Of a stretch of DNA of 64,000 bases, positions 36,965 to 39,935 are shown piece after piece. A program made the translations under genes and the position numbers. Under the pieces are notes generated by a model. It saw only the letters and a list, made by a program, of their open reading frames with translations. It searched no databases and was not told the DNA's origin. Position 1 is the stretch's first letter. Every line of letters begins with the position of its first letter. This DNA is from an uncultured Schlesneria sp. (lineage in GTDB: Bacteria; Planctomycetota; Planctomycetia; Planctomycetales; Planctomycetaceae), in the NCBI GenBank assembly GCA_903899985.1, contig CAIULL010000131.1, forward strand, positions 1 through 64,000, given 5' to 3'.

Positions 36965-37173
36965 GGACGGCCCAATTAACAAAAGAGAAAGCTTTCGTTA
37001 TCTCTAAGTGCGACTGACGGATTGTCGACGATATTTTCGCTGACAATCACGACGTGAATCTGTTTCCGATGATCGATTGAGCTGGTCAAGACGATTCGAC
37101 TTTATAGGATTCTCTTGCTCATGTGTTCGAACGAAAACTTCTTATGAAGAAGGGCAATCATCGGGTAACAATC

Positions 37174-38028
37174 ATGTCGAAACACCCTCATCGTTGGATT
37201 GCATTGGAAGCGGTCATCACTCTGTTAGCGACATCAGGATGTACGCTCGCAGGGCGGCCATATTCAACGACGAGATGGACGACAGAGAGTCCGCCGTATG
37301 TTCAGCAGAAGTGTCTGCCCGTAAGTTCCTGCCCACCTCCTGAACAAGCCTCTTTAGATTTCTGGAAGATGCCGGATACCGATTGCCACGAAGAACGGAG
37401 TGGCCGTTACATCAGTGGCGGAAGTACCGATTCCCACCATTGGCCTGCCGCGATCGGATCGACGGGAGTGTTTCATCTACCAAATCCGTGGTCGACAATA
37501 CGATACGGGGTGATGGGTATGGATAATAATGGCTTAGGTGCCGGTGGCGTTGAAGCGGGGTTTCGAATGCATGCCCCGACGCGAATAAGTCCGTATGCAG
37601 GACTGTCAACAGATCTGGGGATCAGCAATGTCCATACGGAGCCCTATACATACAGTAACGGGAGACGTGGCTCCAGGATTACCAAGGCATCAGGTATCGC
37701 AGCGATCGTACCGGAAGCGGGTGTATCGTACTGGTTAACTTCGTCGACTCGCCTTAATGCGGGAGCCAGCTATTTTGTCGCGGTGAATCAACCGGACTTT
37801 CTCGTAGTTGGCCTCTCGGTCGAGTTTTTGTCACCACAGAGCAGCGGTTCGACCGGCGCGAACGATGCCTCCCAGAACTTGGGTACAGAAGGGAGTTTTT
37901 GGGCCAGCAACGAGACAAGCACGCCTTATCTCGTCGAATCAATTGACTCCGTCAGCCCGATCGATCTTGTGAACTCACGCCAGATCAATTTGCCCGGCCC
38001 CATGAATCCTGCGATCATCTTGCAGTAA
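37174..38028 (+). CDS. Predicted lipoprotein of unknown function
   Basis: The 284-residue protein starts with a short hydrophobic signal ending in LLATSGC, a lipobox-like site at about residue 23. Residues 95-225 are rich in Gly and aromatic residues (GVMGMDNNGLGAGGVEAGFRMHAP, SPYAGLSTDLGISNVH, SYWLTSSTRLNAGASYFV). They alternate like the beta strands of a small outer-membrane barrel or barrel-like domain. Two upstream in-frame ATGs (37123, 37144) would add charged residues before the signal. No family is recognised. Confidence 0.65.
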   Translation: MSKHPHRWIALEAVITLLATSGCTLAGRPYSTTRWTTESPPYVQQKCLPVSSCPPPEQASLDFWKMPDTDCHEERSGRYISGGSTDSHHWPAAIGSTGVFHLPNPWSTIRYGVMGMDNNGLGAGGVEAGFRMHAPTRISPYAGLSTDLGISNVHTEPYTYSNGRRGSRITKASGIAAIVPEAGVSYWLTSSTRLNAGASYFVAVNQPDFLVVGLSVEFLSPQSSGSTGANDASQNLGTEGSFWASNETSTPYLVESIDSVSPIDLVNSRQINLPGPMNPAIILQ

Positions 38029-38040
38029 TCCGAGGGGTTG

Positions 38041-39546
38041 TTATCGAGCAGGTGATCGTTGCGGTCCACTGGCCGTGACTGGCCGCGATTGCTCGTAGGG
38101 CATCGCTTTGATGATCTGCATTAACGATTCGATTTCATCGAGTTCGATTTGGAAATCGACATTTGATTGCTCAAGTGTTCCCTGCTGAATTTCGCCCATT
38201 CCATGCTGCATGGCGGGGCCAAGGACGATTGGTCCCGAGTTGTCATTCGCGAGATACAGCGTTTGCCCGACTGGCTGCAATCGAGCCGGACTGGCAACAC
38301 GAGCCAGTTGCAATTGACCGATAATCGTGATCGTCGCTTCGGTCGATTTGAGAATTGCGACGGTACCATCGGCTGCGACTTGAATCTCGCGGGTTTCATC
38401 GGGAATCTGCATCGTCGGTTGCAACAGAACATGATCGTCCGTTACCGCGAGACAGAGTTGCCGGTCACGGTCCAGCGTGAACGCTCCACACCGCGTGAGC
38501 AGCTCTTTGTCACCTCGTTTGACCACGAAAAAGCCTTCGCCGTCAATCGCGAGATCGAGCTGTCGCCCGGTGTTCTTAAGCGATCCTTGCTTGAGATCAA
38601 GCTGAATCGGTGCGAGTCGACAACCTTCGCCATGAATTCCAGTTCCGAGCCAGGGACTGGGAACGGCCTCATCCGAGGCGGTGGAATCCAGTGATGCCGA
38701 CGCGTAGCTATCCACCAGCGTCACTCGCAAACGTTTGAAACCTGGCGTCGTGATGTTGATCAGATTGTGCCGCAACTGCGAAATCGCGGTCTCGATGGCG
38801 GCGTTTGCCGATGTGTCGTCGGGGAGTTTGAAACGGATTTTTTGAGAAACGGGTTCTGCGGAGATTTCGCGAGAATTGGGACCCCGCAACGGATCTGCGG
38901 AAGCCAGCTTTTCGAGGGATCCTCCGGTTAGCCTTGGCATTGCTCGAATTTGTTTACGCACCTGCAACAGGTCACGTACAACTCCAGCTGGTAGTGCCTT
39001 CAATTCGTCAAACCAGATATCACGTTCTTCACGAGTCGTGTGGGACAATTCCCTTTCAATCACGGATCGGACCGCTTCGTTCCCACTTTCGTCTTCAGTT
39101 CCTTTGTCACGTTCCGGTGTTTCAACGGGAACGGCGTCGACTGGCGCGGGGACAGCCGTTGGCGGATCGCTGGCGCGTACCGTTCGAACTCGTACCTCTT
39201 CATTTTGCAGTTCAATAGCGGAAATGATGTCAGAGCTGGATGTTGTCTGTGCACAACATTGTTGAATTCTCTGCTTATTGGCCTGAGTCGAATCGGCAAT
39301 GGGAACGACAAACGAACGTCGTGCTTGCGATGATCTTTGAGAACCTGTTTTTGGAACTGGACTTTCGTCGAATGAGATCGACGAAAAATCAGAGTCGCCT
39401 GAAGTCATTCCCAGGTCTTCGAAATCAACAAAAGAAACGGACGATTGAGTCGTTCGAGCAAATTGTCTTTGAACTGCCGTGAGACAAACAATGAATGCCA
39501 CCAGCGCCAGAGAAACCACGAAACTAGTGTTCCGCATCCCTTTCAT
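38041..39546 (-). CDS. FlgG-like flagellar rod protein with an N-terminal membrane anchor
   Basis: The 501-residue protein combines unexpected parts. Residues 7-25 form a membrane segment or uncleaved signal (TSFVVSLALVAFIVCLTAV). Residues 30-245 are a polar, low-similarity extension. From about 250 it follows FlgF/FlgG rod proteins: SQLRHNLINITTPGFKRLRV (rod N-terminal motif), LDLKQGSLKNTGRQLDLAIDGEGFFVV (about 316-342), LTRCGAFTLDRDRQL, and C-terminal QQGTLEQSNVDFQIELDEIESLMQIIKAM. Ordinary FlgG is about 260 residues, cytoplasmically made without a signal peptide and exported by the flagellar type III system. ATG 39546 has AAGGAG 7 bases upstream. No other flagellar gene is near. Confidence 0.85.
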   Translation of the reverse strand: MKGMRNTSFVVSLALVAFIVCLTAVQRQFARTTQSSVSFVDFEDLGMTSGDSDFSSISFDESPVPKTGSQRSSQARRSFVVPIADSTQANKQRIQQCCAQTTSSSDIISAIELQNEEVRVRTVRASDPPTAVPAPVDAVPVETPERDKGTEDESGNEAVRSVIERELSHTTREERDIWFDELKALPAGVVRDLLQVRKQIRAMPRLTGGSLEKLASADPLRGPNSREISAEPVSQKIRFKLPDDTSANAAIETAISQLRHNLINITTPGFKRLRVTLVDSYASASLDSTASDEAVPSPWLGTGIHGEGCRLAPIQLDLKQGSLKNTGRQLDLAIDGEGFFVVKRGDKELLTRCGAFTLDRDRQLCLAVTDDHVLLQPTMQIPDETREIQVAADGTVAILKSTEATITIIGQLQLARVASPARLQPVGQTLYLANDNSGPIVLGPAMQHGMGEIQQGTLEQSNVDFQIELDEIESLMQIIKAMPYEQSRPVTASGPQRSPAR

Positions 39547-39935
39547 CGTCAACTCCTTTTGGCGATCATTCGTCGTAGTCCTGGTCCAACCGTGATGTAA
39601 TCGCACAGAAAGAACCAAGAATTCAGTCCAGCCAACCGACTTAAGGGCAATCCATGCCCGTACTTTGGCAGGACGTTACTGGAATCAGGAAAATTCGGCA
39701 ATACGCAGTCCGAAAACGATCGGGAAAACTGATCGGTAGAATTCGGTTTCACCGAAAACGAAATGCGTCGCGATGCGTGAAATAGCGGGAGTTATCTCTT
39801 TGGCCCGCTTGATGAAATGAAAAAGAGACCGCTGAAGTCGACATAGAATTGTTTCGTTTTTTGATTCAACGAAAACCGATTTCCGATGAAAAGCGATGGC
39901 CAAGAGTTTTCGTTACAAAGACTTGGACAGTTATG
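39547..39935. other. Intergenic stretch
   Basis: About 390 bases between two minus-strand genes. It should hold the promoter of the FlgG-like gene. I see no convincing gene, RNA or repeat. Confidence 0.5.

Follow-up and report, generated by a model that had tools for sequence, protein, structure and literature searches.

A gene on the reverse strand of the window (the whole 64,000-nucleotide stretch of DNA analysed here) encodes a 501-residue FlgG-like protein with a predicted N-terminal membrane anchor. We estimate at roughly 60% the probability that this protein is a FlgG paralogue of single origin in the bacterial family f1, repurposed as a membrane-tethered periplasmic protein that builds no rod. 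The source genome is a draft of 296 contigs rated 99.97% complete. The first-pass annotation, made from the sequence letters, had proposed a FlgG-like protein with a membrane anchor at this position, and the open reading frame was found at the coordinates given there. The features of the gene are as follows.

39553..39558, reverse strand: ribosome-binding site AAGGAG, 6 bases before the ATG; a similar site in 28 of 30 relatives
38041..39546, reverse strand: whole gene, 501 amino acids, membrane-anchored FlgG-like protein (open reading frame list and relatives)
39448..39534, reverse strand: hydrophobic N-terminal helix, residues 5-33, predicted signal-anchor (hydropathy and model)
39094..39447, reverse strand: linker predicted to be disordered, residues 34-151, proline-rich towards its end (model and composition)
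38944..39093, reverse strand: three-helix module, residues 152-201 (model, dN/dS and an alignment of 40 relatives)
38809..38943, reverse strand: second linker, residues 202-246 (pLDDT under 50)
38104..38808, reverse strand: FlgG-like domain, residues 247-481, comprising a D0-type helix, the D1 beta domain and a short C-terminal helix
38356..38550, reverse strand: FlgE/F/G D1 domain PF22692, residues 333-397 (Pfam)

The ATG at position 39546 is preceded by AAAAGGAG, in agreement with the strong ribosome-binding site noted previously. The similar sites in relatives are AGGA, GGAG or GAGG tetramers within 20 bases upstream of the corresponding start; no such Shine-Dalgarno-like tetramer was present upstream of the start in L017 and L018, and the GTG start codon of L033 was chosen by us. 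That no flagellar gene lies nearby was also confirmed among the translations read (those of at least 220 amino acids across the whole window and at least 80 amino acids at 36-42 kb), with neighbours judged by reading and one of them scanned against Pfam without a match. The convergent neighbour at 37123-38028 has a lipoprotein-like start and no Pfam family, and a gene resembling it also adjoins the FlgG-like gene in genome G005. Seven of the eight named records found by sequence with the window protein are Schlesneria assemblies; the eighth (L058, Parachitinimonas caeni) matched residues 246-491 at 32%.

Outside the rod domain, no region of the window protein matched a known family convincingly. 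Pfam returned PF22692 alone (E 1.2e-13, 51.5 bits against a cut-off of 27), a domain matched by 26 of 26 family members scanned at E values up to 0.1; a search with PF00460 was disregarded because it missed even the window protein. Residues 249-470 match the NCBIfam FlgG model TIGR02488 (E 2.4e-45), with a score of 155.1 bits that misses the equivalog cut-off of 252.75; for the FlgEFG subfamily model TIGR03506 the score lies above the cut-off (143.2 bits against 70.25). FlgG was the first match in sequence and structure searches alike: the best solved relative in a single-sequence search was FlgG 8z5u (E 1.2e-23), a family profile placed FlgG chains first among solved structures (E 6e-61), and Foldseek searches with two AlphaFold models put FlgG at the top (E 1.4e-7 and 3.3e-7). 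These models agree with the FlgG fold but do not define it, because their confidence is low (mean pLDDT 46 and 55) and their fit to FlgG is poor (rmsd 12-21 Å on superposition; TM-score by target of 0.29-0.55 for the FlgG hits). With the FlgG distal rod protein (TIGR02488; PDB 8z5u, 7cbm and 5wrh) the anchored protein shares the D1 domain and the TpGfKr and LExSNV motifs; unlike FlgG it has an added N-terminal membrane segment, a long linker and a helical module.

The extension before the rod domain thus exists as first described, with its length revised from 220 to approximately 245 residues. In the AlphaFold model the linker at residues 34-151 has block pLDDT values of 23-43 and a short helix at 94-97 as its only structure, and proline makes up 19% of residues 120-151. 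Block pLDDT values of 70-87 were obtained for the three-helix module, for which Pfam gave no match in the window protein and nothing convincing among the 26 members scanned. Candidate Pfam domains for the module were rejected, since five families each matched one of the 26 members or the match fell in the rod part; the best of these stray matches was SurA_N_2 (E 7e-4, one member).

By hydropathy, each of the 30 anchored proteins examined, from 30 of the 37 f1 genomes, has a hydrophobic segment at its N-terminus, as do 10 of 10 proteins from further genomes; this answers affirmatively the earlier suggestion to check whether the anchor is conserved. In the window protein this segment reaches a mean hydropathy of 2.49 over 19 residues and is predicted to be a signal-anchor. 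Net charge was higher before the segment than after it in 22 of the 30 proteins, equal in six and reversed in two; the higher charge before the segment therefore favours a periplasmic body. We infer this membrane topology, with insertion of the Sec type, for the anchored FlgG-like protein. Cleavage of the segment is possible, above all in L031 and L034, in which case the protein would be secreted and not anchored.

Whole-gene dN/dS was 0.09-0.20 in seven pairs drawn from 10 sequences, with dS saturated in the two most distant pairs. Four of these pairs join G000, G001, G004 and G005, genomes in which no axial genes were found; their whole-gene values were 0.12-0.20, and those of residues 152-203, containing the three-helix module, were 0.02-0.05. 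The module had the lowest dN/dS of five regions in four of five measurable pairs, and in the G011-G012 pair the N-terminal segment and second linker fell below it. Across 40 relatives the mean pairwise identity of the module was 0.38, similar to the 0.26-0.39 of parts of the rod domain, in an alignment that omits L092, L093 and L094 (from G021, G031 and G030, respectively) and includes the G028 copy as L021. The start site, selection and conservation agree that the part before the rod domain is translated and needed, and purifying selection indicates that the gene is not decaying.

The first-pass annotation had described rod-protein motifs as clear at both ends of the FlgG-like domain, and this held in part: NITTPGFKR and LEQSNVD can be recognised, whereas the NN[LIM]AN and R-x-[FYV]-E-x-[NAS] motifs have been lost. 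The former was present in one of 29 anchored proteins, compared with 10 of 10 FlgG and seven of 10 FlgF sequences, and the latter, which is terminal, in one of 29, compared with 10 of 10 and nine of 10. From the SNV motif (found in 28 of 29 rows) to the first proline or the end of the protein the anchored proteins have 17-32 residues (median 19), compared with 38-39 residues in all 10 FlgG sequences (median 38); judged by sequence, their C-terminal assembly helix (D0) is about half the usual length. The profile match to solved structures spans FlgG residues 16-242 of 262, and such a local match may stop early for reasons besides a missing helix. The N-terminal D0-type helix occupies residues 247-264 in the model of the window protein, and this model and the alignment suggest that it too is shorter than in FlgG. 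The D0 inner tube of the rod has been modelled from FlgG residues 1-23 and 227-260, according to the available part of the source (PMC5288503). A canonical rod tube is unlikely for the anchored protein because D0 is short and the terminal motif is lost; that it does not polymerise at all would be consistent with the short D0 helices, which do not prove it. The shortened C-terminal D0 helix and a score below the FlgG cut-off together distinguish the protein from FlgG.

Within family f1 the protein was recovered with its N-terminus from 30 of 37 genomes, including a G028 copy (L021) that has lost its C-terminus at a contig end. Three more genomes gave a FlgG-like domain, of which the G021 copy is divergent and has a hydrophobic stretch and those of G030 and G031 lie at contig ends. 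G023 gave a weak, unplaced match, G016 gave shorter FlgG-type matches only, and a profile search of the 37 genomes found no match to the anchored protein in G024 and G033. Second matches were obtained in G002 (two by BLAST against one by profile) and in G014 (two by profile); in both genomes the second match is unlocated. In a sample of 246 genomes from the phylum, all 13 f1 genomes listed carried the protein, 10 of them new, and the full architecture was not seen outside f1 among the matches listed, which extend to approximately E 1e-37; the 99 of 246 genomes without a match are not listed, and weak copies elsewhere may be missed. In another planctomycete family, FlgG-type matches lie in long open frames of 374-815 amino acids (G293:C72, G196:C83, and G237:C3 and C11), which may be other extended FlgG forms or mere open frames.

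In a phylogenetic tree of 50 rows, containing 29 of the 30 anchored proteins (L021 excluded), the anchored proteins form one group apart from 10 FlgG and 10 FlgF sequences of planctomycetes, with support of 100/99. In this tree 14 forks are open and several branches long, and where among FlgG the anchored group attaches is not fixed. Alignment A1 contains 26 of the 30 proteins, the near-copies L002, L003 and L013 and the fragment L021 having been left out. A single FlgG duplication in the ancestor of family f1 would fit these results. Unlike that of FlgG, the gene of the anchored protein does not lie in a flagellar locus and is kept where no rod genes were found; flagellated relatives also have ordinary FlgG and FlgF at other sites. 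For this reason a rod tied to the membrane in this lineage, one of two explanations offered at first, fits badly.

The first-pass annotation had also suggested a search for a standard FlgG in the genome. BLAST and profile searches of the source genome each returned a single match, the anchored protein, and no other FlgG-, FlgF- or FlgE-like protein; FlgC, flagellin and FlgH were also looked for there and not found. Lack of another FlgG together with lack of the anchor in relatives had been named as grounds for giving up the reading, and here the relatives have the anchor. An assembly gap is an unlikely reason for the missing FlgG: the one-contig genome G002 likewise had one profile match only, and neither FlgC nor flagellin was found in it. 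Pfam confirmed FliF, FliG, FliH, a FliI-type ATPase, FlhA and FliN in the source genome, FliP was also matched, and FlhF, a MinD/FlhG-like ATPase, a flagellar-type sigma factor, FliQ and FliR were assigned by reading, with domains that fit where scanned. The loci of this core are as follows.

L073:5534-10323, L059:8152-14912 and L096:6520-9235 (contigs 101, 18 and 3 of the source genome): rotor and export core

Eleven of the 37 f1 genomes had neither FlgC nor flagellin, and nine of these carry the anchored FlgG-like protein; no confirmed copy was found in the other two (no match in G033, the weak match only in G023). Among the same 11 genomes FlgH was found in none, FliP in all and FliF in 10, while in 14 control genomes FlgC, flagellin and FlgH were matched in four, four and three, respectively. 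FlhA was matched in all 37 f1 genomes, in some as fragments only. Genera g1, g4 and g7 each include genomes that have the anchored protein and yielded no genes for rod, hook or filament. Schlesneria daughter cells have been described with two flagella in the accessible portion of one report (PMC4334474). Because genus g1 includes genomes of both kinds, with and without axial genes, some of its members seem to have lost flagellar genes. Two flagellated Schlesneria-type genomes, G007 and G012, each have two FlhA, two FliF and two FliP, with one FliF scoring far better against the family and the other resembling the FliF of non-flagellated members in score, which suggests that they hold a second, possibly acquired, flagellar set. 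Separately, a FlgI-like protein of 669 amino acids with a signal-like start is encoded on contig 113 of the source genome (L060:8713-10719) and combines the first two thirds of the FlgI P-ring domain with weak HEAT-like repeats. Of 59 genomes, 57 had a match to FlgI and 55 had the partial form within a longer frame; among the latter is G053, in which searches found no FlhA and no FliP.

The retained core raises a somewhat unlikely alternative, in which the anchored protein is a tethered axial-type subunit or adaptor over FliF and FliPQR, and what operates in non-flagellated species is a reduced basal body that lacks rod, hook and filament. The set of core proteins in the source genome, where the anchored protein is the only FlgG/F/E-type protein found, argues for such a role, as does the occurrence of FlhA throughout f1 and of FliP in every genome without FlgC and flagellin. 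However, the gene and the export genes lie on different contigs in the source genome, in the one-contig G002 the gene is megabases or hundreds of kilobases from flhA, fliF and fliP, and a membrane anchor and short D0 are ill-suited to an exported axial part. Furthermore, all seven genomes searched from family f2 keep FlhA and FliP and none has a match to the anchored protein. The f2 pattern and the gene distance in G002 lower the probability of this alternative without removing it.

It is improbable that the protein is an accessory of the ordinary flagellum, such as a ring or rod guide, and a mere relic in non-flagellated species. Flagellin does also occur in 21 of the 30 f1 genomes with the anchored protein, but a relic would not be expected to remain intact and under purifying selection between G000, G001, G004 and G005, or to be kept in nine of 11 genomes without FlgC and flagellin.

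In several relatives genes for an ECF sigma factor, an anti-sigma factor, a coiled-coil protein and MscL lie downstream, and a part in envelope stress sensing with these proteins is conceivable and very improbable. In seven of 29 sequences searched (short loci included, some genomes represented twice), ECF sigma, anti-sigma-like and coiled-coil genes come after the FlgG-like gene in the same orientation, with MscL in between in five of the seven; these loci come from G027, G017, G015 and four Schlesneria-type genomes, covering four genera. They include L031:4314-6305, L036:1228-2911 and L056:10057-11881. The anti-sigma-like membrane protein of the cluster has a C-terminal PxWMLAAVS-type motif, and its coiled-coil protein belongs to no convincing Pfam family. 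The coiled-coil gene, however, could not be found in the source genome or several further genomes that carry the FlgG-like gene, and it does occur in families lacking the FlgG-like protein; because the two are distributed differently, the link to the cluster is not obligate. Finally, an ordinary FlgG with a wrongly chosen start is almost certainly wrong: convincing family matches are confined to the rod domain in the window protein, but the upstream part is conserved and constrained, the start with its ribosome-binding site recurs, and selection on residues 152-203 excludes use of a start further downstream at the rod domain.

Repurposing of a FlgG paralogue as a membrane-tethered periplasmic protein is the reading with the best support. 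Of the two explanations first offered, reuse for an envelope role is the one that fits better, given the conserved anchor, purifying selection and short C-terminal D0, and the function itself would follow from these features by inference. The N-terminal helix would hold the protein in the inner membrane, and the flexible linker of approximately 118 residues would let the remainder reach into the periplasm, where the three-helix module may dock a conserved partner and the FlgG D1 domain may be reused as a binding or scaffold domain. A normal rod protein must pass the flagellar export channel and polymerise; the anchored protein, with D0 shortened, would form no hollow rod tube and would not be a flagellar export substrate. 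Since the FlgI ring surrounds FlgG in flagella, the FlgI-like HEAT-repeat protein is a possible partner, although it is far more widespread than the anchored protein. A more speculative extension, which we consider unlikely, is that non-flagellated f1 members run an axis-less envelope machine with a core of FliF, FliG, FliN, FliH, FliI, FliPQR and FlhA and no rod, hook or filament, in which the tethered FlgG paralogue, possibly inside a FlgI-like ring, would be the sole axial-type part. We found no description of the protein or of an axis-less planctomycete core in the literature searched, which mostly excluded subscription journals.

Extra copies of rod proteins are familiar from Bacillus FlhO/FlhP and other FlgF/FlgG paralogues, which are flagellar proteins not known to have an anchor. 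Flagellar remnants without a filament have been reported, in the parts of the sources available, as basal bodies in Buchnera (PMC8109811), as FliI, FlhA and FliF in Chlamydia pneumoniae (PMC2830194) and in Lysobacter enzymogenes (PMC9927559). As far as those excerpts go, these are likewise flagellar components retained in non-swimming bacteria, but they are ordinary flagellar proteins, whereas the rod protein described here has acquired an anchor and additional regions; moreover, Buchnera keeps basal-body structural proteins, whereas FlgC, FlgE/F/G and FlgH were not found here. It appears, then, that a rod protein was remodelled as a tethered envelope protein, which is kept across a bacterial family and accompanies a retained rotor and export core in these bacteria; the case is relevant to the question of how flagellar components are co-opted for other tasks.
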